From: Azoarcus sp. Aa7
GTDB lineage: Bacteria; Pseudomonadota; Gammaproteobacteria; Burkholderiales; Rhodocyclaceae
Length of the DNA: 34,302 nt
Assembly (NCBI RefSeq): GCF_014822185.1
Contig: NZ_QVLR01000039.1
Coordinates: 1-34,302 of the forward strand
Reading direction: 5' to 3'
Shown: piece after piece, positions 17,826 through 31,493 of the stretch
How positions within the stretch are numbered: position 1 is the stretch's first letter
Layout of the letters: every line of letters starts with the position of its first letter
Position numbers and translations under genes: made by a program
The notes under the pieces: generated by a model
Told to the model about the DNA's origin: nothing
Databases searched by the model: none
Seen by the model: the letters and a program-made list of their open reading frames with translations, nothing else

Positions 17826-17974
17826 GGGCGGTGTGTTCTTGCTGTGGGTGCGGGCCGGACATCGGCCGCGATCGAACGCGAGAGCTTAGCGCAAAGAGGC
17901 AAGGACGGCGTTGCCCGAGGTCGGGCGGGGGTACAGGCCAGTCATCAAAAAATCTTATCGAGCAATCGAAACTG

Positions 17975-18003
17975 TTGACAGGTGCCTGCGTCGGTCGCAT
18001 AGT
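17975..18003 (+). promoter_or_regulatory. Sigma-70 promoter of the catabolic operon
   Basis: A perfect -35 TTGACA (17975-17980) and a -10 CATAGT (17998-18003, four of six consensus bases) are separated by 17 bp. Transcription would begin near 18010, about 40 nt before the amidase gene. The operator palindrome at 18002-18017 overlaps the -10 and start, a layout for repression. Confidence 0.6.
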
Positions 18004-18017
18004 TTGTCCGGACAAAC
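18002..18017. promoter_or_regulatory. Operator palindrome upstream of the amidase gene
   Basis: GTTTGTCCGGACAAAC is a perfect 16-bp palindrome covering the predicted transcription start. It fits the loose GT...AC pattern of GntR-family operators. The only regulator encoded in the operon is a GntR/HutC-type protein at 28117-28890, the best candidate to bind here; this pairing is inferred. Confidence 0.6.
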
Positions 18018-18050
18018 GGACATACGTACAAATAGCCGCCGACGAGAACC

Positions 18051-19724
18051 ATGAACCTGCCTCCCGCCCCCGAACAAGAGGTACTGCAGAAGCGCATCAC
18101 GGTGACGCCGCAGGCGCGCATCGACGCGCACGAGGTGTTGCTGGCGCAACGGGAATTTGCAGTTCCGGCGGTCGATCTGTCCGATGTCCTCGCCGCATGC
18201 GACAACCTCGCCGCCGCCGTCGCGGGCGGAATTGCCGGTCTCGACATGGTGCACACCGCCGAGCCGTTCGGTGAGGTGTTGCGACGACTGGCACGGCCGG
18301 CTCTTGCCGGCGCCGCGGGTTCCGGTGAGGCGGCTCCGGCCGGGGCGGCGAGACCCTCCGAACGCTGGGTGAGCGACTGTCTCGGGCGCATCGACATGGC
18401 TGCGCCCGGTCGGCTCGCATGGCGCGAGATCGATAGCGAGCCGGCGCTGCGCCGTGCCCGCGCGCTGGACATCGAGCGCGAGCAGGGCCGCGTCCGCGGC
18501 CCCCTGCATGGCATGCCGATCGGCATCAAGGACATGATGGATCGGGCGGGGCGCGTAGCGGGCTGGGGCTCGCCGCTGCGCAGTGACGCCCGGCCCGCGG
18601 CGGTCGATGCGACGGTTGTCGCGCGTCTGGAGCAGGCCGGCGCCGTGATCCTCGGAACGCAGCACATGGCGGAATTCGCGATGTCCCCGACCGGCCTCAA
18701 TGCGGCTTTCGGTCCGGGGCGCAATCCGTGGAATGTCGAACATGTATCAGGCGGCAGTTCGAGCGGCGGCGGCATGTCGGTGGGAGCGGGGCACGTGCCG
18801 CTGGCGATCGGCTCCGACACCGGCGGGTCCGTGCGCCTGCCGGCGGCCCTGTGCGGCGTGACCGGTTTGAAGCCTACCCAGCATCGCATCAGCGTCGCGG
18901 GGGTGATGCCCTTGTCGCCGAGCCTGGACTGCATCGGGCCGCTGGGCCGCTCGGTCGAGCACTGCGCGTGGGCCTATGCGGCCATGGCCGGGATGGACCC
19001 CGCGGACGCGTCATGCCTTGCCGCGCCGGTGAGTCCGCTCGCTTTCGATGTGCCGGCAGGGGCGTTGACGGTGGCCGTCCCGCGGCTCGCCGCGGGTGCC
19101 CTGTTGTCCGGCGACATGCTGCGCGTCTTCGACGATGCGGTGCGGACGCTCGCCGCTGCCGGGGTGAGGATCGTGGCGATCGACCTGCCGGACCTGGATC
19201 TGCCGGGGCGGCTTGCATCGGTGCTGCTCGCGACGGAATCGACCGCGATGCACCGGCTGTGGCTGCAGGCGCAACCCGAGCGGTATGGCCGACAGGTTCG
19301 CCGGCGGCTGTCCCGTGGCCTGCTGACGGCAAGCATCGATTACTACGATGCGCTCCGCCTGCGCGCACCGATGCTGCGGCGGTTCATGGATCTGGCGCTG
19401 GAGGGCGCCGATGCGCTGCTTTTGCCGGTTACCCCCGACGTAGCGCCGCGCGTCGCCGATACGCTGGGGCCGGACGAGGCGCTGCTCGAGAAGGAGTTTT
19501 CGAAGCTCTCGTTCTGGACCCGCGGCATCAACTACCTCGGCGTCCCGGCCCTGTCGCTGCCGGCCGGGGTCGGGGCGCGGGGATTGCCGCTCGCGGTCCA
19601 GTTCGTCGGTCCGCCGCTCGGCGAGGACCGTCTGTTCGCCCTGGGGCAGTGTTTTCAGCAGCACACCCGCTGGCATCTGCGCCTCCCTGGCGCGGACGAT
19701 CCGGCATCGATTTCCGCCCAGTGA
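18051..19724 (+). CDS. Amidase signature family hydrolase with N-terminal extension
   Basis: A 557-residue amidase hydrolysing a carboxamide or related C-N bond. The catalytic triad is complete: Lys160 in GMPIGIKDMMD, cis-Ser near 236 in SGGSSSGGG, and nucleophile Ser260 in GSDTGGSVRLPAALCG. Spacings of about 76 and 24 residues are as in fatty acid amide hydrolase. About 90 residues precede the usual amidase start and match nothing I recognise. There is no signal peptide, so it is cytosolic. It is not a GatA: no gatB or gatC is nearby. Being first in a TRAP and CoA-ester operon, it may release a carboxylate from an imported amide. Its codon use is looser than that of genes from 20828 onward. 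Confidence 0.88.
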   Translation: MNLPPAPEQEVLQKRITVTPQARIDAHEVLLAQREFAVPAVDLSDVLAACDNLAAAVAGGIAGLDMVHTAEPFGEVLRRLARPALAGAAGSGEAAPAGAARPSERWVSDCLGRIDMAAPGRLAWREIDSEPALRRARALDIEREQGRVRGPLHGMPIGIKDMMDRAGRVAGWGSPLRSDARPAAVDATVVARLEQAGAVILGTQHMAEFAMSPTGLNAAFGPGRNPWNVEHVSGGSSSGGGMSVGAGHVPLAIGSDTGGSVRLPAALCGVTGLKPTQHRISVAGVMPLSPSLDCIGPLGRSVEHCAWAYAAMAGMDPADASCLAAPVSPLAFDVPAGALTVAVPRLAAGALLSGDMLRVFDDAVRTLAAAGVRIVAIDLPDLDLPGRLASVLLATESTAMHRLWLQAQPERYGRQVRRRLSRGLLTASIDYYDALRLRAPMLRRFMDLALEGADALLLPVTPDVAPRVADTLGPDEALLEKEFSKLSFWTRGINYLGVPALSLPAGVGARGLPLAVQFVGPPLGEDRLFALGQCFQQHTRWHLRLPGADDPASISAQ

Positions 19725-19764
19725 CAACCAGAACAACCGGGCAGCCATCCATCAAGGAGGAAGC

Positions 19765-20757
19765 ATGAAAAGTCGACTCAATCGATTCGTTCGTTGGTCC
19801 ATGATTTTTGCAGCGGCGTGGGGGGCGCAGACGAGCGCGGCCGACATGGTGATCACCAGCGAGGTGCCCGTCACGACCAATCCGAGTCCCTACGTCGAGC
19901 AGTTCATCGCGGAGGTGGCGAAGCGCACCAACGGCGCGATACAGGGGAAGTATTTTCCCGCCGCGCAGCTCTACAACGATCGCGACGCACTCGCTGCGCT
20001 GGGTACCGGCGCGGTGCATATGGTGTGGCCGGTGTCGTCCCGCCTGGAACTGATGGACCCCCGGCTCGGAGCGATCAGCCTGCCTTTCACGCTGGGCACG
20101 CGTGAAATGACCAATCGCTGTTTTGCCGAGGGATTCACCCGCCAGGTGTCCGGCTACATCGAGCCGCGCGGCGTCAAGGTGCTGGGTTTTCTGCGCACGG
20201 CCGAGCTGCTTTTCATCATGAAGAGTCGCGACGTGCAGGGCGTAGGGGATCTGAAGGGGCAGAAGGTACGTGTGGTCGGCGGCAAGGTGATGCTGGATGC
20301 GATGCAGTCGGTGCAGGCGAGTCCCGTGTCGATGGCCGCGTCGGAGATGTCGGCGGCTCTTGCCCAGGGCGCCATCGATGGCGTGATGACCTCGCCCGCC
20401 GGCTGGGTCGATGTGCTGGGCAACACCGCCAAATTCGCCACCCTGGTCCCGGGCATGGCGCTCGCCACGTCCGCGGTGGCGGTCGACAAGGCGTGGTTCG
20501 ACGGCTTGCCCGGTGATCAGCGCAAGGTCGTTCAGACCGTCCTGGACGAAATCATCGCGCGCCAGTGGCAGGAAACGGTGACCAAGGACGAGCAGCTGGT
20601 GAAGAAGATGGTCGATCAGGGCGGCACCTATCGCGTGATGCCTGTAGCGGAGACCGATCGTCTGAAGGAGCGTTTCGTCGCCGCGGGCCAGAGCTTCAGG
20701 GACAAGCACGGCGACGTCATGAAGCAGGTCGACGAGCTGCGCAAAACCTGCCTTTGA
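19765..20757 (+). CDS. TRAP transporter solute-binding protein (DctP type), copy 1
   Basis: A 330-residue periplasmic binding protein of the TRAP family, which captures small carboxylates. The signal peptide ends QTSAADM near residue 27. Family features include the conserved Arg that salt-bridges the substrate carboxylate in GQKVRVVGGKV and the SPAGWVDVLG region. A strong AAGGAGG precedes the ATG. It is clearly paralogous to the protein at 21441-22442 (shared stretches AKRTNGA, DALAALGTGAVHMVWPV, FLRTAEL/FLRTADL, SPVSMAASEMS), yet only one DctQM pair follows. Codons such as AGT, ATA, TTT and CGA are commoner here than in the second copy. Confidence 0.9.
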   Translation: MKSRLNRFVRWSMIFAAAWGAQTSAADMVITSEVPVTTNPSPYVEQFIAEVAKRTNGAIQGKYFPAAQLYNDRDALAALGTGAVHMVWPVSSRLELMDPRLGAISLPFTLGTREMTNRCFAEGFTRQVSGYIEPRGVKVLGFLRTAELLFIMKSRDVQGVGDLKGQKVRVVGGKVMLDAMQSVQASPVSMAASEMSAALAQGAIDGVMTSPAGWVDVLGNTAKFATLVPGMALATSAVAVDKAWFDGLPGDQRKVVQTVLDEIIARQWQETVTKDEQLVKKMVDQGGTYRVMPVAETDRLKERFVAAGQSFRDKHGDVMKQVDELRKTCL

Positions 20758-20827
20758 CCGCATCGGGCACGTATCCGGACCGGAGCCGGGATCAACCCGG
20801 CCAACATCATCGAATCAGGAGACATGA

Positions 20828-21340
20828 ATGACCGTAAGACAAATCGGCGAACAACGCTACCGTGGCCAGATCGGCCGTTACTTCGAGGACTTCGAGGTGG
20901 GCGACGTGTATGAGCACCGTCCGGGGCGCACCCTCACCGACAACGACAACATCCAGTTCTCGCTGCTGACGATGAACTACCACCCGATGCACTGCGACGC
21001 CGCCTTCGCCGAGAAGAGCGAGTTCGGCAAGCTGCTGATGAACAGCGGTCTGACCCTCGCGGTGGTGCTCGGCATGACCGTGCCCGACGTCAGCGGCAAG
21101 GCGATCGCGAACCTCGGCTGGAAGGAGATCAAGCTCCTGGCGCCGGTGTTCGCCGGCGACACGATCTACGCCGAGTCCGAAGTGCTTGAGAAGCGCGAAT
21201 CGAAGTCGCGCCCGACGCAGGGCATCGTCACCGTGCGCACGCTCGGCAAGAAGGCCGACGGTACGGTGTTCATGGAGTTCGTGCGCAGCGCGCTGATCCA
21301 GAAGCGCGAAGGCAGCAAGGACGCCGAGGCTGGTTATTGA
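20828..21340 (+). CDS. MaoC-like hot-dog hydratase/dehydratase
   Basis: A 170-residue single hot-dog-fold protein of the MaoC family, adding or removing water across the double bond of an enoyl-CoA. The start RYFEDFEVGDVYEHRPGRTLTDNDN and the hydratase motif around NYHPMHCDAAFAEKSEFGKLL (catalytic Asp/Asn-His) are intact. The ATG at 20828 has AGGAG 6 nt upstream; another ATG at 20824 is out of frame. In the pathway suggested by the neighbours it would hydrate itaconyl-CoA or mesaconyl-CoA to citramalyl-CoA. It is short relative to my memory of two-domain mesaconyl-CoA hydratases, so the exact substrate is open. Confidence 0.85.
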   Translation: MTVRQIGEQRYRGQIGRYFEDFEVGDVYEHRPGRTLTDNDNIQFSLLTMNYHPMHCDAAFAEKSEFGKLLMNSGLTLAVVLGMTVPDVSGKAIANLGWKEIKLLAPVFAGDTIYAESEVLEKRESKSRPTQGIVTVRTLGKKADGTVFMEFVRSALIQKREGSKDAEAGY

Positions 21341-21440
21341 GCCGGCGCACCAAGGCCGCCGCCGCAGCGGCGCCACGCAACGCGAACACAAAGCGGGCGA
21401 CAGACACCGCCCCGACACAACCCAGAGGAGACCTTCCGTG

Positions 21441-22442
21441 ATGACATTCAAGCATCTTGCCGCGACCGCGATCGCTTCCCTGTGCGTGATGGCGCACGCG
21501 GGCAGCGCGTCGGCCGTCGATCTGGTCCTTCCCAGCGAGGTCGCTGCGACCCACTGGAAGACCAAGTACATGAACCAGTTCGCCGAGGGCGTCGCCAAGC
21601 GCACCAACGGCGCGCTCAACGTCAAGGTCTTCCCCGCGGGCCAGCTCTACAATGACCAGGACGCGCTCGCCGCGCTCGGCACCGGCGCGGTGCACATGGT
21701 GTGGCCGGTCGCGGTGCGTGTCGAATCGATCGAGCCGCGCACCGGCATCGTCAACCTGCCGTTCGCGGTCAGCGACGAGATGATGACCAACCAGTGCTTC
21801 TCCGAAGGGCTGACAACGCTGATGTCGTCCTACGTCGAGCCGCGCAACCTGAAGATCCTCGGGTTCCTGCGTACCGCCGACCTGTTCTTCGTGTTCCGCA
21901 ACCGCGACGTGCAAAAGATGGAGGACCTGAAGGGCGCGAAGATCCGCGTCACCGGCGGCAAGGTGTTCCAGGAGACGATGAAGAGCCTGAACACCAGCCC
22001 GGTGTCGATGGCCGCCTCCGAGATGAGTACCGCGCTCGCGCAGGGCGCCATCGACGGCGTGTATACCTCGCCCGCCGGCTGGGCCGAGATGATCGGCATG
22101 ACCGGCAAGTACGCGTGGTACGTGCCCGGTTTCACGCTGTCGACCTACGCGGTCGTCGTCGACAAGGGCTGGATTGATGGCCTGCCTGAAGCGCAGCGCA
22201 AGGCGATCGCCGACACCATCAAGGAGATCACGCCGCGCCAGTGGCACGACGTCGCTGCCGAGGACAAGCTGCTCATCGACAAGATGGTCGCGCAGGGCGC
22301 CGTGTTCCGCACCGCATCCCCGGAAGAGTCGAAACGCTGGCGCGCGCTGGCGAAGAGCAACGAGAAGGTGTTCTCCGACAAGTATCCGGAGGCGATCCAG
22401 AAGCTCGGCGAACTTGAGAAGAGGTGTGGCTATGGCAGCTGA
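21441..22442 (+). CDS. dctP: TRAP transporter solute-binding protein (DctP type), copy 2
   Basis: A 333-residue periplasmic binding protein for a dicarboxylate-like substrate. The signal peptide ends SASA near residue 24. The conserved Arg is in GAKIRVTGGKV and the SPAGWAEMIG segment is present. A GTG at 21438 is in frame and also well spaced from GAGGAG; the ATG is preferred. The stop overlaps dctQ by 11 nt, so this copy is the direct partner of the DctQM membrane pair. It is more uniform in GC-ending codons than copy 1. Confidence 0.9.
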   Translation: MTFKHLAATAIASLCVMAHAGSASAVDLVLPSEVAATHWKTKYMNQFAEGVAKRTNGALNVKVFPAGQLYNDQDALAALGTGAVHMVWPVAVRVESIEPRTGIVNLPFAVSDEMMTNQCFSEGLTTLMSSYVEPRNLKILGFLRTADLFFVFRNRDVQKMEDLKGAKIRVTGGKVFQETMKSLNTSPVSMAASEMSTALAQGAIDGVYTSPAGWAEMIGMTGKYAWYVPGFTLSTYAVVVDKGWIDGLPEAQRKAIADTIKEITPRQWHDVAAEDKLLIDKMVAQGAVFRTASPEESKRWRALAKSNEKVFSDKYPEAIQKLGELEKRCGYGS

Positions 22443-23037
22443 GTCAGCGACGATGAAGCACGAGCACATTCCGGCGCCCGCGCCGACGAATGCCCCCCAG
22501 GAGAGCGCCACGAAGCCGCGCCAGGACTGGTGGCAGCGCCTCGAATCGGGTGCGCTGGTGAGCTTCGCAACGGTGCTGTTCCTGTGTTCGACGGCGATCA
22601 TGCTGATCGAAGGCGGCAGCCGTTCGCTGTTCGACGAGAGCTTCTTCTGGGCCGAGGAGTCGGTGCGCTACCTGATGGTATGGGCCTTCTTCCTGACGCT
22701 CGGAGCGGCGGGCACGGCGGGTAACCACATCCGCACCGAGCTCCTCGTCGATCACATGCCGGCCGGCATCCGCAAGGCGATGCACGTTCTCGCCAGCCTC
22801 GTCGGCATCGGCTTCAGCGGGGCGCTGTTCTACGCGTCGCTGCCGCAGGTCCAGCGCTATTACACGATGGGGATGATGACCGAATCGAACCTGGATCTGC
22901 CGGTATGGATCCTGTTCCTCGCGATGCCCCTCGGAGCGTTGCTGATGCTCGCCTACTACGCCCGCTGCCTCGTGCGCGCGGTGCGCGGCGAGGACCCCTA
23001 TGCGTCGGCGCATGGCCCGACCGGTTCCGAACTCTAG
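22432..23037 (+). CDS. dctQ: TRAP transporter small permease (DctQ)
   Basis: A 201-residue small membrane subunit of a tripartite ATP-independent periplasmic transporter. After a charged N-terminal tail of about 38 residues come four hydrophobic helices. The DctQ family pattern FWAEESVRYLMVWAFFLTLGAAGTA and HIRTELLVD is clear. GAGG lies 7 nt before the ATG inside the end of dctP, giving an overlapping start. It stabilises DctM and docks the binding proteins. Confidence 0.9.
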   Translation: MAAESATMKHEHIPAPAPTNAPQESATKPRQDWWQRLESGALVSFATVLFLCSTAIMLIEGGSRSLFDESFFWAEESVRYLMVWAFFLTLGAAGTAGNHIRTELLVDHMPAGIRKAMHVLASLVGIGFSGALFYASLPQVQRYYTMGMMTESNLDLPVWILFLAMPLGALLMLAYYARCLVRAVRGEDPYASAHGPTGSEL

Positions 23038-23045
23038 GAGACATC

Positions 23046-24317
23046 ATGCTCATTGCAACGTCACTCGTGCTGATGCTGGTCCTGCTCGCCGTCGGCACGC
23101 ATGTCGCCGTCGCGCTGGGGCTGGTCAGCACCGGCCTGATCCTGATGCTGGACGGCGTGCCGACCACGGTCATCGCGCAAACCGCCTTCAAGTCGGTCAA
23201 CAGCTATCCCCTGATGGCGATCCCGATGTTCGTGCTCGCCGGTAACCTGATGATGCGCGGCAACATCGCGAGTCTGATGATCGACCTCGTCGGCAGCCTC
23301 GTCCGTGCGGTCAAGGGCGGGCTCGCGCTGACGGTGATGATCGCCAGCGTGTTCTTCGCCGCGGTGTCCGGCTCCAGTGTCGGCTCCGCGGCCGCGATCG
23401 GCGCTTCCACCGTCGATGGCCTCAAGCGCGAGCAGTATCCCGCGCGCTTCTCGGCCGGCATTGTCGCGGTCGGCGGCACCCTCGGCCTGATGATCCCGCC
23501 TTCGCTCGGCTTCATCCTGATCGGCTCCATCGTCGGCCTGCCGGTCGACAAGCTGTTCATCGCCGGCGTGCTGCCCGGACTGATGGAAGCCGCGCTGCTG
23601 ATGCTGGCGGTGGTGTTCATCTCGCGCCGCTACAACTTCGGCGCCAGCGCGCAGAAGGCCGATTGGAACGGCTTCTCCCGGCGGTTGCCGGGTGCGGGGG
23701 CGGCGCTGATGATGCCGGTGCTGATCCTCGGCGCGATCTACACGGGCTACCTGACCCCGACCGAGGTGTCCGCCTTCGCCGCGGCCTATGCCGTCCTGCT
23801 GTGCGTGCTGATCTACCGCAGCGTGACGATCGGCGGCGTGTGGCAGGTCGCGAAGGACTCACTGCTGCAGACGACGATGATCTTCGCGGTCGTCATGGGC
23901 GGCAGCCTGGTCGGCTTCGTGCTGGCGCGGATGGGCGTGTCGGCGCAGCTCGTCAGCGCCATCACCGCAATGGACATGAGTCCGTGGCAGTTCCTGCTGC
24001 TCGCGAACATCGTCCTGCTGATCCTCGGCATGTTCCTCGACGGCGTTGCCATGATCGTGCTGACTGCGCCGCTGCTGTTCCCGGTCGCGACCGCGCTGGG
24101 CATCAACCCGATCCACTTCGCCGTGATCATGGTCGCGAACGTCGAGATCGCGACGCTGACCCCGCCGATCGGCCTGAATCTCTTCGTGATGAGCGGCATC
24201 GCCAAACTGCCCGTGCATGAAGTCGCCCGCGGCGTGCTGCCCTTCTACGGCGTGCGCCTGATGGGCCTGATGCTGATCTCCTACATCCCGCAGATCTCGC
24301 TGTTCCTTGTCGATTGA
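23046..24317 (+). CDS. dctM: TRAP transporter large permease (DctM)
   Basis: A 423-residue inner-membrane protein with about a dozen helices, the transport subunit that uses the sodium gradient. Family marks are seen: SYPLMAIPMFVLAGNLM near 57-73, FFAAVSGSSVGSAAAIG near 101-117, IPPSLGFILIGSIVG, and TPPIGLNLFVMSGI near the end. AGGAG precedes the ATG by 5 nt, and the gene is 8 bp from dctQ. Together with two binding proteins it probably imports the operon's substrate. Confidence 0.93.
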   Translation: MLIATSLVLMLVLLAVGTHVAVALGLVSTGLILMLDGVPTTVIAQTAFKSVNSYPLMAIPMFVLAGNLMMRGNIASLMIDLVGSLVRAVKGGLALTVMIASVFFAAVSGSSVGSAAAIGASTVDGLKREQYPARFSAGIVAVGGTLGLMIPPSLGFILIGSIVGLPVDKLFIAGVLPGLMEAALLMLAVVFISRRYNFGASAQKADWNGFSRRLPGAGAALMMPVLILGAIYTGYLTPTEVSAFAAAYAVLLCVLIYRSVTIGGVWQVAKDSLLQTTMIFAVVMGGSLVGFVLARMGVSAQLVSAITAMDMSPWQFLLLANIVLLILGMFLDGVAMIVLTAPLLFPVATALGINPIHFAVIMVANVEIATLTPPIGLNLFVMSGIAKLPVHEVARGVLPFYGVRLMGLMLISYIPQISLFLVD

Positions 24318-24330
24318 GGAAGAACTCCCG

Positions 24331-25734
24331 ATGAATGCTCCGAAATCCCCCGCCGATGCGCTGATCGCACCGGTCCTCGCCAAGTTCGCCGCCGACCTCG
24401 ACTACGACGCGATCCCCGCGGAGGTGCGCGAACGCGCGAAGTACCTGATTCTCGACGCTGTCGGTATCGCCCACGCCTCGACGCGCTACGACTTCGCCCA
24501 CCGCTCGCTGTCCGCGGTGTCGGAGCTGGGCCGCGGAGACGCCGACGTGATCGGCCTCTCCGCCAAGCTCACGCTGCGCGACGCGGTGCTGATGAACGGC
24601 ATCCTCGTGCATGGCCTCGACTACGACGACACCCACGCCCGCGGGGTCATCCACGCTACCGCGAGCTGCTTTCCGACGGCGCTGGGCGTGGCCGCGCAGG
24701 CGGCGCTGTCGGGCCGTGAGCTCCTCGCCGCCTACATCGTCGGCATGGAGGTCGCGACCCGCCTCGGCTCGGTCGCCAAAGGCGGCTTCCACCAGACCGG
24801 CTTCCATCCGACCGGCCTCATCGGCACCTTTGCGTGCGCGCTGATCGCCGGCCGCCTGCACGGCATGAACGCCGACCAGCTCGCGATGGCGCAGGGCATC
24901 GCGCTCTCGGTCGCCTCTGGCAGCCTCGAGTTCCTGCAGGATGGCGCCTGGACCAAGCGCATGCACCCCGGCTGGGCGGGTGTCGCCGGCATCACCGCCG
25001 CGACGCTCGCGAAGCACGGCTTCGTCGGACCGAAGGCGGCCTACGAAGGACGCTTCGGCCTCTTCAACAGTCACCTCGGCCCGCTCGCCGAGAATTGCGA
25101 CTACACGCTCGCGACCGCCGGCCTGGGCGAAGCCTGGGAAGTCGGGCAGGTCGCGGTCAAGCCGCTGCCCGCCTGCCACTTCACGCACTCGTGCGCCGAC
25201 TCGGCGATGGCGATTGCCCGCGAGCACAAGTTCCGTCCCGAGGACATCGAGAAGGTGAGGGCGCTCATCCCGGCCGAGGTCGTGAAGACCGTGTGCGAAC
25301 CGGTCGCCAACAAGCAGAAGCCGCAGAACAGCTACGACGCGCAGTTCAGCATCCCGTACGCAGTCGCTTCCGGCCTCCTGCGCGGACGCTTCGGCCTCGC
25401 GGAGCTGGAGGACAGCGCGCTATCCGAAGCCGACGTGCTGGCGGTTGCGGGCAAGGTCGCCTACGAGGTCGATCCCAACTCCGCGTTCCCGCAGTACTAC
25501 TCGGGCGAAGTCATCGTGACGCTGCGCGACGGCCGCGAGTTCTCGCACCGCGAGCACGTCAACCGCGGCGCCGCCGACCGCCCGATCACCAACGACGAGA
25601 TCGTCGAGAAGTACATGGAAAACGCCTGCCTCGCAGTCTCCCCGCAGCGTGCGCGCCAGATCCGGGACGCGGTGCTCGCGCTCGACGAGATGCCCGCCGG
25701 CACCTTCTCCGACGCGCTCGCCGCACAGGCCTGA
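24331..25734 (+). CDS. MmgE/PrpD family protein
   Basis: A 467-residue protein of the MmgE/PrpD family, which includes 2-methylcitrate dehydratase, cis-aconitate decarboxylase and iminodisuccinate epimerase. The family motif HGLDYDDTHARGVIHATASCF (about 91-111) is intact, with further blocks GTFACALIAGRLHGM and RMHPGWAGVAG. The ATG at 24331 is chosen with GAGGA upstream, rather than an in-frame TTG inside dctM. No prpB, prpC or acnD is present, so a methylcitrate cycle is unlikely. A MmgE/PrpD gene also accompanies the itaconate genes of Pseudomonas aeruginosa, as I recall; its reaction there is unclear. Confidence 0.88.
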   Translation: MNAPKSPADALIAPVLAKFAADLDYDAIPAEVRERAKYLILDAVGIAHASTRYDFAHRSLSAVSELGRGDADVIGLSAKLTLRDAVLMNGILVHGLDYDDTHARGVIHATASCFPTALGVAAQAALSGRELLAAYIVGMEVATRLGSVAKGGFHQTGFHPTGLIGTFACALIAGRLHGMNADQLAMAQGIALSVASGSLEFLQDGAWTKRMHPGWAGVAGITAATLAKHGFVGPKAAYEGRFGLFNSHLGPLAENCDYTLATAGLGEAWEVGQVAVKPLPACHFTHSCADSAMAIAREHKFRPEDIEKVRALIPAEVVKTVCEPVANKQKPQNSYDAQFSIPYAVASGLLRGRFGLAELEDSALSEADVLAVAGKVAYEVDPNSAFPQYYSGEVIVTLRDGREFSHREHVNRGAADRPITNDEIVEKYMENACLAVSPQRARQIRDAVLALDEMPAGTFSDALAAQA

Positions 25735-25749
25735 CCCCCGACCCCGACA
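25733..25749 (+). repeat. 17-bp direct repeat, copy 1
   Basis: GACCCCCGACCCCGACA begins at the stop codon of the MmgE/PrpD gene, in the short spacer before the acyl-CoA dehydrogenase. It is identical to 30110-30126. Confidence 0.6.
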
Positions 25750-25775
25750 GACGAACCGAATACAGAGAGCACGAC

Positions 25776-26933
25776 ATGAACATGGCTACCAATCTTGAAG
25801 AGGAACAACTGATCCTCGACTCGCTCGACCGCTTCCTCGAGACCGAAGTGAAGCAGCACGTGCATCAACTCGAGCACGACGACATCTACCCGGCGGAGAT
25901 CGTCGAGAAGATGAAGGAGCTCGGCCTCTTCGGCTGCATCATCGCCACCGAATACGGCGGCCTGGGCCTCTCCACCTCGACCTACGCGAAGATCGTCGCG
26001 CGCATCTCCGAAACCTGGATGTCGCTGTCCGGCATCATCAACTCGCACCTCATCATGGCCGCCGCCGTGCAGCGCCACGGCACGCCCGAACAAAAAGCGC
26101 ACTACCTGCCCAAGTTCGCCACCGGCGAACTGCGCGGCGGCATCGGCCTCACCGAGCCCGACGCCGGCACCGACCTGCAGGCGATCCGCACGGTCGCGAA
26201 GCGCGACGGCGACCACTACGTCGTCAATGGCACCAAGACCTGGATCACCAACAGCATGTACGGCAATACGATCGCGCTGCTGGTGAAGACCGACCCCAAC
26301 GCCCAGCCGCGCCACACGGGCATGAGCCTGCTGATCGCCGAGAAAGGCCCCGGCTTCAAGGTCGCGCGCAAGCTCGAGAAGCTCGGCTACCGCGGCATCG
26401 ACACCTGCGAGCTCGTGTTCGAGGACTACCGCGTGCCGGTCGATCGCCTCATCGGCGGCGTCGAGGGCGTCGGCCTGAAGCAGGTGTTGTCGGGTCTGGA
26501 ACTGGGCCGTATCAACGTCGCCGCGCGTGGCGTCGGCGTCGCGAGCGCCGCGTTGAAGGAGGCGACCACCTACTCGCAGGTACGCAAGACCTTCGGCAAG
26601 CCGATTTGCGAGCACCAGGCCATCCAGCTGATGCTCGGCGAGATGGCGACCCGCGTCGAAGCCTCGCGCCTGCTCGTCGAATCGGCCGCCAAGGCCTACG
26701 ACGAGGGCCGCCGCTGCGACATGGAAGCCGGCATGGCCAAGTACTTCGCCACCGAATCCGCCGTGACCAACGCCATGGACGCGATGCGCATCCACGGCGG
26801 CTACGGCTATTCGAAGGAATACAACATCGAGCGCCTGTACCGCGACGCGCCGCTGCTGACCATCGGCGAAGGCACCAACGAACTGCAGCGCATCATCATC
26901 GCCAAGCAACTCATCGAGAGGAACCCGGCATGA
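25776..26933 (+). CDS. Acyl-CoA dehydrogenase
   Basis: A 385-residue FAD enzyme oxidising an acyl-CoA to the enoyl-CoA. It shows the FAD/substrate motif GGIGLTEPDAGTD, the WITNSMYGN region, and C-terminal RDAPLLTIGEGTNELQR with catalytic Glu365 in the standard position. Glu at this place is typical of short/branched-chain and glutaryl-CoA-like members. In this cluster a plausible substrate is methylsuccinyl-CoA, giving mesaconyl- or itaconyl-CoA, but this is inferred from the neighbours. A second ATG lies two codons downstream. The stop overlaps the start of the CoA-transferase by ATGA. Confidence 0.92.
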   Translation: MNMATNLEEEQLILDSLDRFLETEVKQHVHQLEHDDIYPAEIVEKMKELGLFGCIIATEYGGLGLSTSTYAKIVARISETWMSLSGIINSHLIMAAAVQRHGTPEQKAHYLPKFATGELRGGIGLTEPDAGTDLQAIRTVAKRDGDHYVVNGTKTWITNSMYGNTIALLVKTDPNAQPRHTGMSLLIAEKGPGFKVARKLEKLGYRGIDTCELVFEDYRVPVDRLIGGVEGVGLKQVLSGLELGRINVAARGVGVASAALKEATTYSQVRKTFGKPICEHQAIQLMLGEMATRVEASRLLVESAAKAYDEGRRCDMEAGMAKYFATESAVTNAMDAMRIHGGYGYSKEYNIERLYRDAPLLTIGEGTNELQRIIIAKQLIERNPA

Positions 26934-28120
26934 GTCTCCCACTTGAAGGCGTGCGCATCATCGCCGTCGAACAATACGGCGCGGGGCCTTTCGGCACGCA
27001 ACATCTGGCGGACCTCGGCGCCGAGGTCATCAAGGTCGAGAACCCGGGCGACGGCGGCGATGTCGGCCGCAGCGTCGGCCCCTACTTCTTCGGCAACGGC
27101 GACAGCCACTTCCACCAATCCTTCAACCGCAACAAGAAGAGCATCACCCTCGACCTGAAGAAGCCCGAAGGGCAGGACGTGCTGCACGAACTGGTGAAGA
27201 CCGCCGACGCGGTGTTCGACAACCTGCGCGGCGACATCCCCGCGAAGCTCGGCCTGACCTACGAGCACCTGAAGGAATACAACCCGAAGATCGTCTGCGG
27301 CCACCTCTCCGCCTACGGCCGCACCGGCGAGCGCGCGAAGTGGCCGGGTTACGACTACCTGATGCAAGCCGAGGCCGGCTACCTCTCGGTCACCGGCGAA
27401 CCCGACGGCCCGCCCGCGCGCTTCGGCATCTCCATCATCGACATGATGACCGGCACGATGTCGGCGCTCGGCCTGGTGTCGGCGATCGTCGGCGCGCGCG
27501 CGACCGGAGTGGGGCGCGATGTCGACGTGAGCCTCTTCGACGTCGCGATGCACAACCTCAGCTACCTCGCGACCTGGTACCTCAACGAAGGCGTCGTCAC
27601 CGGCCGCGCGCCGCGCTCGGCGCACCCTTCGCTCACGCCCAGCCAGCTCTACCGCACCCGGGACGGCTGGATCTTCATCATGTGCAACAAGGAAAAGTTC
27701 TTCGGCGTGCTGTGCGAGCTGATCGGCCGACCCGAATGGGCGACTGACCCGCGCTTCGAGAACTTCGCCGCGCGCCTCGCGCACCGCGACGAACTCACCG
27801 AGATGCTCGACGGCGTGCTGATGACGGCCACCACGGCCGACTGGATGCAGCGCTTCGGCGGCAGCGTGCCGGCCGCCCCGGTCAACGACATCGCCCAGGC
27901 GCTCGACAACCCGTTCGCACGCGAACAGGGCCTCGTCGTCGATGTCCCGCACCCCGCACGCGGCACGATCCGCACCGTCGCCTGCCCGATCCGTTGCCCT
28001 GGCGAGGAACTCCCCAAGCGCCCCGCGCCCCAGCTCGGAGCGGATACACTCGCCGTCCTCGGAAGCCTCAGGGACGATGACCAATGGATGGCGAACTTGA
28101 GCAGGAATCAGGTGATATGA
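26930..28120 (+). CDS. CaiB/BaiF family (class III) CoA-transferase
   Basis: A 396-residue CoA-transferase moving CoA between carboxylic acids by an aspartyl-CoA anhydride route. The opening LEGVRIIAVEQYGAGPFGTQHLADLGAEV and the nucleotide-contact NRNKKSITLDLKKPEG are classic. The catalytic Asp is Asp171 in ISIIDMMTGT, matching Asp169 of formyl-CoA transferase. Given CitE, MaoC and TRAP neighbours, it most likely activates itaconate, mesaconate or methylsuccinate with succinyl-CoA. GAGAGGA precedes the ATG, which overlaps the preceding stop. The same order, dehydrogenase then transferase, supports use of the same CoA ester. Confidence 0.92.
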   Translation: MSLPLEGVRIIAVEQYGAGPFGTQHLADLGAEVIKVENPGDGGDVGRSVGPYFFGNGDSHFHQSFNRNKKSITLDLKKPEGQDVLHELVKTADAVFDNLRGDIPAKLGLTYEHLKEYNPKIVCGHLSAYGRTGERAKWPGYDYLMQAEAGYLSVTGEPDGPPARFGISIIDMMTGTMSALGLVSAIVGARATGVGRDVDVSLFDVAMHNLSYLATWYLNEGVVTGRAPRSAHPSLTPSQLYRTRDGWIFIMCNKEKFFGVLCELIGRPEWATDPRFENFAARLAHRDELTEMLDGVLMTATTADWMQRFGGSVPAAPVNDIAQALDNPFAREQGLVVDVPHPARGTIRTVACPIRCPGEELPKRPAPQLGADTLAVLGSLRDDDQWMANLSRNQVI

Positions 28121-28890
28121 ACACCCAACCCCCGCAGCTGCTGGCCTCCGGTCAGCCGCGCTATCTCGTGCTCGCGCAGGCGCTGATGGACGACATCCGG
28201 TCCGGACGCTACCCGCTCGACAGCCTGCTGCCGACCGAGATCGAACTGTGCGAGCAGTTCAACGTCAGCCGGCACACGGTGCGCGAAGCGATCCGGCGGC
28301 TCGCCGACATGGGCCTGATCAGCCGGCAGCCGGGGGTGGGCACGCGCGTCAAGGCGACCCAGGTCGCCTCCCGCTATACCCAGTCGAGCGACGGCATCGC
28401 CGACCTATACCAGTTCGTGCGCGACGTGAGGCTGGAAGTGACGGGCAACGGCGACGTCATCGCCGACGAGGAGCTTGCCGAGCTGCTCGAATGCAAACGT
28501 GGCCAAGCCTGGCTGCACGTCGAGGGCCTGCGCTACGTCGCCGACGAGACGGTCCCGATCGCGCGCACCGACGTCTATATCGCGCGCCCCTACCGCGGCA
28601 TCGTCGCCGACCTGGGCGACGAGCAGGTGCCGATCTACTCCCTGATCGAAAAGCGCTACGGGCTACGCGTCGTCGAAGTGCGCCAGCAGGTCCGCGCGGT
28701 GAATATCGGCGAGTCCGACGCCGCCCGCCTGCATGTCGAACCGGGTGCGGCCGGCCTGTTGGTCGTGCGCAAATACATTGCCGCCAATGACGAACTCCTC
28801 GAGGTCGGCGTCAGCCTCCATCCGGGCGAACGCTTCACCTATTCGACGACGCAGCGCCTCGAAATCCAGAATGGGAGCAAGACCCGGTGA
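28117..28890 (+). CDS. GntR family regulator with UTRA domain (HutC subfamily)
   Basis: A 257-residue transcription regulator. The N-terminal winged helix (about 15-85) has LPTEIELCEQFNVSRHTVREAIRRLADMGLISRQPGVGTRV, the GntR hallmark. The C-terminal UTRA ligand domain runs from about 105 to 240. HutC-type proteins usually repress and release DNA on binding a pathway metabolite. The start at 28117 overlaps the CoA-transferase stop (ATGA); an in-frame ATG at 28084 would add 11 residues. Placement inside the operon suggests autoregulation through the palindrome at 18002-18017. Confidence 0.9.
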   Translation: MNTQPPQLLASGQPRYLVLAQALMDDIRSGRYPLDSLLPTEIELCEQFNVSRHTVREAIRRLADMGLISRQPGVGTRVKATQVASRYTQSSDGIADLYQFVRDVRLEVTGNGDVIADEELAELLECKRGQAWLHVEGLRYVADETVPIARTDVYIARPYRGIVADLGDEQVPIYSLIEKRYGLRVVEVRQQVRAVNIGESDAARLHVEPGAAGLLVVRKYIAANDELLEVGVSLHPGERFTYSTTQRLEIQNGSKTR

Positions 28891-30092
28891 ACGGGGTCGT
28901 CGTCCCGCTTGCGACCACGCTCGCAGTACAGGCGCTGGTGTCGATGGCCGCGCTGACTGCGCCGGTTCTCGCGCCCGAGGCGGCGGCCGACCTGGGCATC
29001 CCGGCGACGCTGGTGGGCGTGTTCGTCGCGCTGATCTACGTCGGCGCGATGATCTCCAGCCTCGCGAGCGGCAACCTCGTTGTCCGCTACGGTGCGATCC
29101 GCGTCAGCCAGGTCTGCCTCGTCCTGTGCGGCGCGGGCCTCGCCCTGGGGACCGCGGGCTCGCCCGCACTGATGGCCGCAAGCGGGCTGCTCATCGGCCT
29201 CGGCTACGGCCCGGTCACGCCCGCGAGTTCGCACATCCTCGCGCGCACGACGCCCGCGCACCTGATGGGCTTCATGTTCTCGCTGAAACAGACCGGCGTG
29301 CCGCTCGGCGGCGCCCTTGCGGGCGCCCTGGTGCCCAGCTTCGCCATCCTGTGGGGCTGGCAGGGCGCCGCCATCGCCGTCTGCGCTGCCTGCATGCTGA
29401 TGGCGCTGTTGGCCCAGCCCACGCGCGCCGGCTTCGACGCCGACCGCGACCCTGCGCGCCGCTTCTCGCTCGCCGGCGTGTTCACGCCGCTCGCGATGGT
29501 CTTCGCCTATCCGCGCATCCGCGACCTCGCGATCTGCACCTTCTTCTTCGGCGCGATGCAGCTGTGCCTGACGACCTATCTCGTCACCTACCTGACTACC
29601 GCCTACGGCATGCCGCTCGTCACCGCCGGCCTGGTGCTGTCGCTCACACAGGCCGCCGGCATCGGCGGGCGCCTCGTATGGGGCCTCGTCGCCGACCGTT
29701 GGATGACCCCGCGCCGCCTGCTCAGCCTGCTCGCCATCGCCATGGCCATGTCCTCGCTCCTCACCGCAGCCTTCGAGCCGGACTGGCCGCTCGTCGCGGT
29801 GATCGCCGTCAGCATGGTCTTCGGTGCCACGGCAATCGGCTGGAACGGCGTCTATCTCGCCGAGGTCGCGCGCCTCGCCCCGGCCGGGCAGGCCGGCGTG
29901 CTCACCGGCGGCACGCTGTTCTTCACCTACTTCGGCGTCGTCGCCGGCCCGCCGGCCTTCGCCGCACTGGTCGGCGTCACCGGCTCCTTCGCCGCTGGCT
30001 ACGCTGCAATCGGCAGCGTGATCCTCGCCATCGGCGTCCTGCTGGTGCTGACGCAGGCACGCCGTCCGGCCGAATGCACCGAAACCGCGTGA
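28887..30092 (+). CDS. Major facilitator superfamily transporter
   Basis: A 401-residue permease with about twelve hydrophobic helices. It starts with GTG, 9 nt after GGGAG, overlapping the regulator stop by GTGA. LIGLGYGPVTPASSHIL near 109-125 and the FSLKQTGVPLGGALAGALVP segment are of the type seen in bacterial carboxylate or drug MFS proteins. No narrower family was recognised. With a TRAP system in the same operon, it may bring in a second related substrate or export an intermediate. Confidence 0.85.
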   Translation: MNGVVVPLATTLAVQALVSMAALTAPVLAPEAAADLGIPATLVGVFVALIYVGAMISSLASGNLVVRYGAIRVSQVCLVLCGAGLALGTAGSPALMAASGLLIGLGYGPVTPASSHILARTTPAHLMGFMFSLKQTGVPLGGALAGALVPSFAILWGWQGAAIAVCAACMLMALLAQPTRAGFDADRDPARRFSLAGVFTPLAMVFAYPRIRDLAICTFFFGAMQLCLTTYLVTYLTTAYGMPLVTAGLVLSLTQAAGIGGRLVWGLVADRWMTPRRLLSLLAIAMAMSSLLTAAFEPDWPLVAVIAVSMVFGATAIGWNGVYLAEVARLAPAGQAGVLTGGTLFFTYFGVVAGPPAFAALVGVTGSFAAGYAAIGSVILAIGVLLVLTQARRPAECTETA

Positions 30093-30109
30093 TTCCCTTT
30101 CAGCAGACG

Positions 30110-30126
30110 ACCCCCGACCCCGACAC
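30110..30126 (+). repeat. 17-bp direct repeat, copy 2
   Basis: GACCCCCGACCCCGACA occurs in the spacer between the MFS and lyase genes, identical to 25733-25749. The identity between two leader-like spacers may mark past rearrangement within the operon, or simply shared low-complexity sequence. Confidence 0.55.
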
Positions 30127-30152
30127 ACGCTAAAGACACAGGAGACAAGCGC

Positions 30153-30956
30153 ATGTCCCCCCGTTCCTACCTCTTCGTCCCCGGCGACCGCGCCGAGCGC
30201 TTCGACAAGGCCTGCGCCGCCGGCGCCGACGCCGTCATCATCGACCTCGAGGACGCCGTGACGCCCGAACGCAAGGCCGTCGCACGCGAATCCGTCATGG
30301 CCTGGCTCGCCGCCGGCGGGCGCGCCTGCGTGCGCGTGAATGGCACCGACACGGAATGGTTCGACGACGACTGCGCGCTGCTCGACCAGCCCGGCGTCCT
30401 CGGCGTCGTACTGCCCAAGGCCGAGCGCGCCGAACAGCTTGCGCGCCTCGCCGCCCGCCTGCGTCCGGGCGTGCGCATCGTGCCCATCGTCGAAACCGGT
30501 CTGGGCCTGTGGAACGCCCTCGAACTCGCCAGCGCACCCGGTGTCGAGCGGCTCGCCTTCGGTTCGGTCGACTTCCAACTCGACTGCGGCATCCTCGGTG
30601 ATGGCGAAGAACTCCTCTACGCGCGCTCCCGTCTCGTCCTCGCCTCCGCGATCGCCCGCATCGATTCCCCGGTCGACGGCGTCACCGTCGCGATCCACGA
30701 CATCGACCAACTGCAAGCCGACACCCGTCGCGCCCGCCTGCTCGGCTTCGGCGCCAAACTGTGCATTCACCCGAAGCATGTCGTCCCGGTAAACGAAGGC
30801 TTCATGCCCGCAGAGGCCGAAGTCACCCACGCCCGCACGATCATGGCCGCGGTCGACGCCGCCGCCGGAGTCGGTGCGATCACCCTCGACGGCAAGCTCA
30901 TCGACCGCCCCGTGATCGAACGCGCGCGCAAGATCCTGGAGCGCGTCGCCGCATGA
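30153..30956 (+). CDS. HpcH/HpaI aldolase / CitE-like CoA-ester lyase
   Basis: A 267-residue (beta/alpha)8 lyase of the CitE/malyl-CoA lyase family, cleaving a hydroxyacyl-CoA. Motifs in order: RSYLFVPGDR at 4-13, IIDLEDAVTPERK near 29-41, VRVNGTD with the substrate Arg, VPIVETGLG with a metal-binding Glu, FGSVDFQLDCG with a metal-binding Asp, and CIHPKHV. The length is that of free-standing CitE and citramalyl-CoA lyase. There is no citD, citF or citrate CoA-transferase nearby, so citrate lyase is excluded. With the CoA-transferase and MaoC protein, citramalyl-CoA cleavage to acetyl-CoA and pyruvate is the likeliest role. GGAGA precedes the ATG. Confidence 0.9.
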   Translation: MSPRSYLFVPGDRAERFDKACAAGADAVIIDLEDAVTPERKAVARESVMAWLAAGGRACVRVNGTDTEWFDDDCALLDQPGVLGVVLPKAERAEQLARLAARLRPGVRIVPIVETGLGLWNALELASAPGVERLAFGSVDFQLDCGILGDGEELLYARSRLVLASAIARIDSPVDGVTVAIHDIDQLQADTRRARLLGFGAKLCIHPKHVVPVNEGFMPAEAEVTHARTIMAAVDAAAGVGAITLDGKLIDRPVIERARKILERVAA

Positions 30957-31159
30957 ACGCCCCGCGTGCCGACACCGCCGAACTCGTCGCCGACGAGTTC
31001 GCATTTCTTGCGCGCATGCTGCACGTCACGCATTCACGATTCGATCGCGATCCGGACCGGATCGAACGGGTCCGGCGGCGCTTCATGCAATCCGCGGATG
31101 CCGACGGCGCCCGCTTCGAGCGTCCGATGCGCGTCAACCGCCAGCGCCGGCCCGGCTGA
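30953..31159 (+). CDS. Small protein coupled to the CitE-like lyase
   Basis: A 68-residue basic protein, not recognised. It starts MNAPRADTAELVADEFAFL and ends RRPG. A predicted amphipathic helix over ADTAELVADEFAFLARMLHVT is followed by an Arg-rich tail. It has no signal or membrane segment. Its ATG overlaps the lyase stop (ATGA), so it would be translated from the lyase message. A terminator structure follows within 100 bp. It may be an accessory to the lyase or a chance frame; the overlap and codon bias favour a real gene. Confidence 0.55.
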   Translation: MNAPRADTAELVADEFAFLARMLHVTHSRFDRDPDRIERVRRRFMQSADADGARFERPMRVNRQRRPG

Positions 31160-31178
31160 AGCGGTCGGAACCTGTCTC

Positions 31179-31221
31179 TTCGGCGACCAGTCTTCTCTCC
31201 CTCTCCCGCAAGGTCGCCGAA
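31179..31221. repeat. Inverted repeat before the operon terminator
   Basis: TTCGGCGACC (31179-31188) and GGTCGCCGAA (31212-31221) are perfect 10-bp arms with a 23-nt pyrimidine-rich loop. It lies just upstream of the terminator and could act with it to protect or end the transcript. Confidence 0.5.
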
Positions 31222-31226
31222 CCTTC

Positions 31227-31269
31227 CCCGGCCGCCCGAAGAAGGTGTCGGCGGCCGGGATATTTTTTT
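31227..31269 (+). terminator. Intrinsic terminator of the catabolic operon
   Basis: CCCGGCCGCC (31227-31236) pairs with GGCGGCCGGG (31250-31259). A run of seven Ts follows at 31263-31269, three bases past the stem. It is the best rho-independent terminator in the window and marks the end of the operon that begins at the amidase. Confidence 0.85.
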
Positions 31270-31493
31270 CGATCCCGCAGTCAACTACATGCCGGTGCCG
31301 TGGGGCCGAGGTTGTGTGCCGCGGACGTCGCAGTCGCGAGAGCAGCCGGGAATACGCTGAAGCGGCATGGTCCGCCTGCTGAAGCGGTTCCCCCTACGCG
31401 GCCCCGGCATCCCGCCTGCGCCGTTTGTTCGTGCAGCGCGCCGAAGAACGACCTCCGCCCAAAGCGGATCCCCGCGCCCCTGGAACGATTCGC

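Follow-up and report, generated by a model that had tools for sequence, protein, structure and literature searches.

Background

The described systems closest to the locus reported here are the itaconate/methylsuccinate cluster of Pseudomonas aeruginosa and Cupriavidus necator (ich-mcd-msi-ict-ccl, in P. aeruginosa together with the transporter genes ictPQM), for which gene functions are given in PMC12290011, PMC12599236 and PMC9875883, and the Yersinia/Salmonella-type RipABC system, in Yersinia a three-gene itaconate pathway (PMC12290011). Reaction types like those considered below are also found in the ethylmalonyl-CoA module, i.e. methylsuccinyl-C1-coenzyme A (CoA) dehydrogenase, mesaconyl-C1-CoA hydratase and malyl-CoA lyase. 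Here we analyse a 34,302-nucleotide stretch of DNA from Azoarcus sp. Aa7 (contig NZ_QVLR01000039.1 of assembly GCF_014822185.1), referred to as the window. It carries 12 tightly packed, co-directional genes (18051-30956, + strand; typed using Pfam and NCBIfam), which have enzyme superfamilies, pathway logic and the link to a tripartite ATP-independent periplasmic (TRAP) transporter in common with the P. aeruginosa/C. necator cluster.

A sequence-only reading had proposed that these genes form an itaconate-type C5-dicarboxylate operon in a variant form. We report that the gene families do fit a logic in which a branched short dicarboxylate is taken up, released from its amide, activated with CoA, oxidised, hydrated and split by retro-Claisen cleavage, but that four of the five enzymes are non-orthologous to Ict, Ich, Mcd and Msi, that active sites differ throughout the group of related clusters, and that Msi and Mcd coexist with such a cluster in 12 of 34 genomes. 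Judged from sequence, it is about an even call that the genes form an inducible operon serving the catabolism of a substituted dicarboxylate of succinate type, different from methylsuccinate and itaconate, and of the half-amide of that acid.

Comparison with the described clusters

An annotated P. aeruginosa plasmid record holding genes for a LysR regulator, Ich, a dehydrogenase, a VOC protein, an MmgE/PrpD protein, a transferase, a lyase and TRAP proteins served as reference, and its gene products are called Ich, Mcd, Msi, Ict, Ccl and IctPQM according to family and gene order, as in PMC12290011, PMC12599236 and PMC9875883. The reference lyase is 99.6% identical to a solved P. aeruginosa-type lyase. 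PA locus numbers were matched to this cluster from the papers.

In pairwise blastp comparisons the MaoC-type hydratase of the window (20828..21340; 170 aa; typed by Pfam) and Ich (275 aa) showed no significant similarity (E 0.17 over 40 residues). Identity was 28.8% between the MmgE/PrpD protein (24331..25734) and Msi, 31.1% between the acyl-CoA dehydrogenase (25776..26933) and Mcd, and 32.8% between the class III (CaiB/BaiF) CoA-transferase (26930..28120; Pfam, NCBIfam and blastp) and Ict. The HpcH/HpaI (CitE-like) acyl-CoA lyase (30153..30956), which is nearest to citramalyl-CoA lyases, reached 42.9% to P. aeruginosa Ccl. For the transporter the values were 20.7% and 22.5% (the binding proteins DctP1 and DctP2 vs IctP) and 36.1% (DctM vs IctM). 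Canonical loci of other bacteria are 73-93% (Mcd) and 49-81% (Ict) identical to those of P. aeruginosa, and the window set thus falls outside the canonical group; orthology to the P. aeruginosa set was rejected for four of the five enzymes, Ich and Ict among them. In the lyase tree the window-type lyases, minus five Azospirillum-type ones, cluster apart (SH-aLRT 93, at an unstarred node).

All gene types named in the sequence-only reading were recovered with Pfam and NCBIfam, and the differences from P. aeruginosa that it listed (gene order, a GntR regulator, a major facilitator superfamily (MFS) transporter, an amidase and a second TRAP binding protein) hold against the annotated cluster copy. 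The GntR regulator stands in place of LysR, the window has an operator of its own, and the catalytic residues of Mcd and Msi are not preserved.

Among the NCBIfam models listed, none reached its cut-off for the enzymes of the operon. RipB_Ich (225.6 bits, cut-off 340) was the best model for the MaoC protein and RipC_Ccl (168.2 bits, cut-off 375) for the lyase; among these models the two proteins are nearest to RipB and RipC, and they fall far under the equivalog cut-offs. Compared with RipABC the window adds a dehydrogenase, an MmgE/PrpD protein, an amidase and TRAP genes, and its transferase is of class III. The best solved relative of the dehydrogenase is FadE3 (4iv6, 453.8 bits), vs 172.7 bits to 8ciw, named (2S)-methylsuccinyl-CoA dehydrogenase, and 254.8 bits to the 551-aa acyl-CoA dehydrogenase 6es9. 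Relative to the ethylmalonyl-CoA module, the lyase is far from malyl-CoA lyase. A closer similarity to another pathway, which had been named as the outcome that would count against the itaconate proposal, was not fully borne out, and no other named pathway with a better fit to the cluster was found.

Some loci with canonical or related genes are worth recording. A plasmid of P. aeruginosa (p2014S05-249-1, 847 kb, typed conjugative) holds a complete itaconate/methylsuccinate region with flanks. On the Pseudomonas luteola plasmid NZ_CP044084.1 a coding sequence annotated as "transposase" (5950-6777 of locus L073) is 59% identical to P. aeruginosa Ich and adjoins Mcd (92%) and a lyase (57%); it is probably a mis-annotated itaconyl-CoA hydratase. 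Three loci (L061, L064 and L065) have a true Mcd (73-74%) and gave no match to an Ich of the P. aeruginosa type within the stretch; they are hybrids of the two itaconate hydratase types. On contig C34 of the Azoarcus genome itself, genes for a second MaoC (45%), for a lyase of CitE-like type (33%) and for a dehydrogenase resembling Mcd (44% to P. aeruginosa Mcd) are adjacent.

Related loci and their distribution

Named genomes were scanned using a MaoC alignment built from window-type clusters and one related cluster, and the best 80 of 569 confirmed relatives were retained; given this selection and this query, the counts describe near relatives. Together with 11 earlier loci 91 were mapped, and 52 of these were classified as window-type (mmgE at least 50% and acad at least 60%). 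Near-copies are among the 52: L053 and L083 come from the same strain, and several others are from Azospirillum and Caballeronia. Some loci stop at contig ends.

The gene maoC is present in all 52 (65-99%), as are mmgE (52-94%) and the dehydrogenase gene acad (61-98%), followed by gntR in 50 (35-90%), the transferase gene coaT in 49 (61-97%), citE in 40 (39-92%), mfs in 19, dctM in 14, the amidase gene in 13 and dctP1 in four. Commonly maoC is followed by transport genes and then by mmgE, acad, coaT, gntR, (mfs) and citE; L110 and L115 have coaT on the opposite strand. Loci that lack DctPQM often have a 471-aa MFS ORF family (17 of 52 loci, confirmed by Pfam for one) or an ORF family of approximately 330 aa (16 of 52 loci) that by eye resembles Bug-type binding proteins.

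The core cluster spans Beta-, Gamma- and Alphaproteobacteria. According to the record names the hosts include Stutzerimonas, Pseudomonas syringae, Caballeronia, Paraburkholderia, Bordetella, Achromobacter, Variovorax and Ramlibacter as well as Azospirillum, Novosphingobium, Frigidibacter and Roseovarius. Within the window's own genus the MaoC gene was found in three of 17 genomes searched, its own counted (E ≤ 1e-40). Among the matches listed, mostly at the level of listings, a search of an open-access collection gave the known itaconate papers and no publication describing a window-type cluster.

Behind the clusters L100, L104, L106 and L107 there are two adjacent ORFs, by eye similar to electron-transfer flavoprotein subunits, which would suit as partner for the acyl-CoA dehydrogenase. 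Eight further loci (L126, L132, L140, L145, L147, L150, L157 and L158) have maoC-acad(-coaT) clusters with another MmgE/PrpD protein (34-41% to that of the window) upstream of maoC.

Active sites of the MmgE/PrpD protein and the dehydrogenase

For Msi, His102 and Tyr148 are the proposed base pair and Glu91 is among the carboxylate ligands (PMC12290011). Sequences were grouped by overall identity, near-copies being present among the rows of both enzymes, and 25 MmgE/PrpD and 13 dehydrogenase rows belonging to neither group were left out of the counts. At the columns of His102, Tyr148 and Glu91 the residues are His/His/Asp in all 53 window-type rows and His/Tyr/Glu in all 13 Msi-type rows; the window protein accordingly has His at the column of the catalytic Tyr of Msi and IDS epimerase. 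Among the 25 ungrouped rows 16 have His and four have Tyr at the Tyr148 column. The counterparts of Msi H88, H102, H152, K202 and K266 are conserved in 53 of 53 window-type rows, and with both Pfam domains and this carboxylate-binding His/Lys set the window protein is a member of the MmgE/PrpD superfamily, its scores with the NCBIfam PrpD model being weak.

Asp at the Glu91 column is common to the window protein and IDS epimerase, and is also found in fungal cis-aconitate decarboxylase and Bacillus subtilis IRG1; at the Tyr148 column IDS epimerase has its catalytic Tyr and the fungal decarboxylase Asp, where the window has His. Since the substrates of the Asp-bearing enzymes, where known, exceed methylsuccinate in size, this Asp may be a sign of a larger substrate. 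Another MmgE group, with a GGFHHAGFHATG-like motif and 43-47% identity to the window's protein, was seen in L050, L051, L054 and L055; apart from L054, these loci gave no match in the stretch to acad, maoC or citE, whether canonical or window-type.

The dehydrogenase is FadE3-like and has Glu in its GEGT motif (Pfam, alignment). This Glu is present in 75 of 76 window-type rows (one has a gap), vs Pro in 21 of 21 Mcd rows, and at the alternative base column there is Gly in 76 of 76 window-type rows vs Glu in 21 of 21 Mcd rows. The catalytic base is hence presumed to sit opposite to the site used by Mcd. A GEGT-type base is typical of short- and medium-chain, glutaryl-CoA and alpha-branched acyl-CoA dehydrogenases, while the alternative site is that of isovaleryl-CoA dehydrogenase, the substrate of which is beta-branched like methylsuccinyl-C4-CoA. 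The base position argues against methylsuccinyl-C4-CoA as substrate of the window dehydrogenase, without amounting to proof.

Co-occurrence with methylsuccinate isomerase

Co-occurrence was studied in 35 genome entries representing 34 distinct strains with a window-type cluster. The set comprised the Azoarcus genome, G005, G009, that of L053 and a further 31 from named core loci, and excluded plasmid records and most metagenome bins. Msi at 62-78% is also encoded in 12 of the 34, and in all 12 regions fetched it adjoins Mcd (78-93%); five regions have the full canonical set (Ich, Mcd, Ict, Msi and lyase) within 16 kb, whereas in the other seven just Mcd and Msi are seen. Of the 34 genomes, 30 have an Ich homologue (39-75%), its identity being 50% or higher in those 12 that carry Msi. 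Two isofunctional pathways in one-third of the genomes seem less likely than two substrates. In the Azoarcus genome we found no Msi, and no Ich homologue at 1e-15.

A conserved operator-like sequence

The palindrome GTTTGTCCGGACAAAC (18002..18017) overlaps the final two bases of the -10-like box of a promoter-like site, TTGACA-17-CATAGT (17975..18003, + strand), in which both hexamers are identical in two same-genus genomes. This is the sole such site in 17500-31500, where 1.1 are expected by chance. An intrinsic-terminator-like hairpin (30979..31001, + strand) lies 22 bases past the last stop codon, and sites of this kind number 10 in 14 kb vs 5.8 expected; with counts such as these the argument for promoter and terminator rests on position. 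The sequence TTTGTCCGGACAAA occurs once in the 5.39-Mb genome.

The operator core TTGTnCGnACAA was detected in 40 of the 52 window-type loci vs none of 16 canonical regions, with a chance rate of 0.005 per locus as estimated from shuffled sequence. In 39 of the 40 it is at most 161 bases from a mapped cluster gene (the site in L101 lies away). TTGTnCGnACAA is also present in nine of 35 other MaoC loci. Twelve core loci are without TTGTnCGnACAA; three of these (L109, L047 and L096) have a near variant and in the remaining nine no variant was found. Searched in 15 genomes, the longer pattern TTTGTnCGnACAAA was present in nine, with exactly one copy in each, compared to one of 15 for a control pattern, and all nine sites share a contig with the window-type mmgE of the genome, 1.6-7.6 kb apart. 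We suggest that GTTTGTCCGGACAAAC is probably the binding site of the operon's GntR regulator, and autoregulation is the natural reading because the gntR gene is located inside the operon. In the open-access collection searched, the operator words led to two unrelated titles and to no publication tying them to such genes. The Azospirillum-type loci have two operator sites, and L048, L052 and similar Azospirillum loci in addition a second GntR gene at the cluster end.

The amidase and the two TRAP binding proteins

The first gene encodes an amidase of the amidase-signature family (18051..19724; Pfam PF01425, 2.6e-93) for which none of 25 listed NCBIfam models reached the cut-off. Its N-terminal extension of approximately 100 aa has no Pfam match. 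A small ORF precedes the amidase gene in Azospirillum and Paraburkholderia loci. The guess that the extension is a fused AtzG-like small subunit was unsupported (47 of 500 shuffled sequences scored as high, and hhalign gave P 0.1-0.4).

The 13 amidase genes in related loci, and that of the window, are always on the strand of the core enzymes and among cluster genes, and their position varies: before dctP1 and maoC in the window's genus, after dctP2 in Bordetella, between maoC and the MFS gene in Paraburkholderia and between gntR and dctQM in Azospirillum. In a first tree with five outgroup rows the 14 cluster-linked amidases formed one starred clade. This single clade was dropped after 18 general amidases of the order had been added, since the 14 then fell into three groups (3 label changes); a single-origin tree was not rejected (p-AU 0.134). 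L183 (amidase-like, with one internal TGA) was excluded from both trees and L198 (stop in the match) from the second. One to three recruitments are thus indicated, and whether through one cluster-bound amidase lineage or through repeated recruitment, this ties an amide to the pathway.

At the DNA level the window's amidase gene is 71% and dctP1 81-82% identical to same-genus copies, vs 85-95% for the other ten genes; between the two other same-genus copies the values are 85% (amidase) and 91% (dctP1). The low identity of these two genes suggests that they diverged or were exchanged as a block, although the amidase gene also changes fastest in general. DctP1 (19765..20757; Pfam PF03480), encoded next to the amidase, and DctP2 (21438..22442; Pfam and pocket residues) are 50% identical and there is a single DctQM in the operon.

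In IctP the residues K41, N213 and Y236 touch the distal carboxylate of itaconate (PMC12599236). Using the IctP numbering of that paper and a mapping made at 21-22% identity, locally gap-free, DctP2 retains counterparts of K41, R169 and Y236, while DctP1 retains R169 and has Pro for K41, Ser for Y236 and no counterpart of N213. Both have Arg at K94 and have lost N209 and N213, and neither has an IctP-like residue set. K41 and Y236 are lost in five of five DctP1 rows (at least 65%) and kept in 10 of 10 DctP2 rows (at least 57%). The single substrate-binding protein of the amidase-bearing Azospirillum-type loci (45%) has Thr for K41 in five of five rows and keeps Y236. The loss of distal-carboxylate residues makes a half-amide a plausible ligand of DctP1. 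The earlier suggestion of an amide substrate has consequently gained support, from the several gene orders in which the amidase occurs, from the amidase-DctP1 block and from the pocket residues.

Layout of the operon and its flanks

The transporter is completed by the small permease DctQ (22432..23037; Pfam PF04290) and the large permease DctM (23046..24317; Pfam PF06808, with TIGR00786 above its cut-off), and with DctP, DctQ and DctM domains all together it is a TRAP transporter. The GntR regulator (28117..28890) has a UTRA effector domain and is followed by the MFS transporter (28887..30092), both typed by Pfam. Start codons of six operon genes were refined relative to the initial ORF calls. 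Overlaps amount to 11 bases for dctP2/dctQ and four bases each for acad/coaT, coaT/gntR and gntR/mfs, and all 12 genes are under purifying selection (dN/dS 0.009-0.21 vs two same-genus genomes). The set ends at 30956 and not at 31159 as first proposed; the latter coordinate stems from an ORF (30761-31159) without Pfam match. The flanks encode an aldehyde dehydrogenase (10519-11949), a dCache-HAMP-GGDEF-EAL protein (13563-16058), a chromate-transporter-type protein (16690-18015), a weakly cupredoxin-like protein (31425-31937) and a polyketide-cyclase-like protein (33086-33586).

Discussion

We infer the reactions, their order, the substrate class, the amide, the sharing of DctQM and the binding and direction of the regulator as follows. 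DctP2-DctQM, and the MFS transporter, would import the diacid, and DctP1, sharing DctQM, the half-amide, which the amidase would convert to the diacid. The MmgE/PrpD protein may set the stereocentre, as an epimerase or as an isomerase with the same enolate chemistry, and the class III transferase would form the CoA ester. The FadE3-like dehydrogenase would then introduce a 2,3-double bond, the MaoC hydratase would add water, and the CitE-like lyase would cleave the product to give a short acyl-CoA plus a 2-oxo acid, for which acetyl-CoA and pyruvate, or a homologue, are the most likely. GntR-UTRA would repress from the TTTGTnCGnACAAA operator until a pathway compound is bound.

Itaconate or methylsuccinate itself is a possible substrate. 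The operon may represent a second, independently assembled pathway in which non-orthologous enzymes act on the same substrates and yield acetyl-CoA and pyruvate through citramalyl-CoA; we consider this somewhat unlikely. Such convergence has a precedent in the Yersinia-type and Pseudomonas-type pathways (PMC12290011), the set of gene types is identical, and RipB_Ich and RipC_Ccl are the best models for MaoC and lyase, but with scores far under their cut-offs, and the dehydrogenase base site and the MmgE catalytic pair differ group-wide from Mcd and Msi, a pair of enzymes that one-third of the genomes also have. An improbable alternative, modelled on the ethylmalonyl-CoA pathway, is that the transferase places CoA next to the branch, and that dehydrogenase, MaoC and lyase in turn lead over a mesaconyl-C1-CoA-type and a beta-alkylmalyl-CoA intermediate to propionyl-CoA (or a homologue) and glyoxylate. 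The best solved relative of the MaoC protein, beta-methylmalyl-CoA dehydratase (8hgn), and its Pfam assignment as mesaconyl-CoA hydratase agree with this route, as does the GEGT-type base, which is unlike that of Mcd, a C4-ester enzyme (PMC12290011). On a Pseudosulfitobacter plasmid the genes behind the cluster (L047:14072-21338) are annotated as acyl-CoA mutase, cobalamin-dependent protein, MeaB, thioesterase and carboxyl transferase and would suit such a product; they may point to an acyl-CoA of propionyl-CoA type or to a branched one. Dehydrogenases acting on unbranched or alpha-branched acyl groups usually have a base of the GEGT type. Against the C1-ester route, the window lyase scores 174.5 bits with the P. 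aeruginosa lyase vs 101.6 with malyl-CoA lyase, and no glyoxylate-handling gene was recognised within the operon.

Amidase and DctP1 might also be passengers that act on something unrelated to an amide-free pathway, which we regard as rather unlikely. No amidase was mapped in 39 of the 52 loci, some of them on short contigs, the cluster-linked amidases fall into three groups among general ones, and the Azoarcus genome has three further amidase-like genes; on the other side stand the placement of the amidase among the core genes in 13 of 13 loci, the divergence of amidase and dctP1 as a block, and the 50% identity of two binding proteins served by one DctQM. Our estimates for the three substrate readings overlap with each other and with this question of amidase membership.

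Several observations weigh against a substrate other than itaconate or methylsuccinate. The lyase is 43% identical to P. aeruginosa Ccl and 49-54% to the canonical Burkholderiaceae lyases of L075, L176, L177 and L179, and this closeness to true citramalyl-CoA lyases favours a C5 end product. In the three hybrid loci a RipB-type MaoC, 56-57% identical to the window's, is near a true Mcd, so the window MaoC could hydrate mesaconyl-C4-CoA, and L047 and L096 have, instead of the window-type transferase, one with greater similarity to Ict (42% and 45%). Msi at 62% or more is missing from 22 of the 34 cluster-bearing genomes including that of Azoarcus, where, with Ich also lacking, the cluster could be the sole C5 pathway. 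No measured substrate was found for any enzyme of the window-type group. The half-amide is weakened by the occurrence of amidases 37-43% identical to the window's elsewhere in the order (15 of 249 other genomes) and by the low identity at which the binding pockets were mapped. In addition, the binding proteins of L128, L130 and L131 (26-31%) are without K41 and have no mapped amidase, which weakens the correlation, and the distant L063 row (28%) carries Tyr at 236.

The label "itaconate operon" is unsupported, and "itaconate-like" is supported in logic. We retain the reading of an operon for another substituted succinate and its half-amide; that it would represent a widespread, undescribed pathway with its own GntR-UTRA operator and two TRAP receptors sharing one permease appears to us a little short of even. 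Gene-type matching alone would label such clusters itaconate/methylsuccinate degradation, and sequence tests that separate the two cluster kinds are provided by the operator, by His/Asp in the MmgE protein and by the position of the dehydrogenase base. If the reading is true, a third of the tested genomes hold the cluster besides methylsuccinate isomerase and dehydrogenase, with which it is easily confused, and the two-receptor, one-permease arrangement, if real, exemplifies substrate expansion in TRAP transporters. Many proteobacteria would then be consuming a class of branched dicarboxylates from the environment, and the amides of these acids, through a pathway that has no name.

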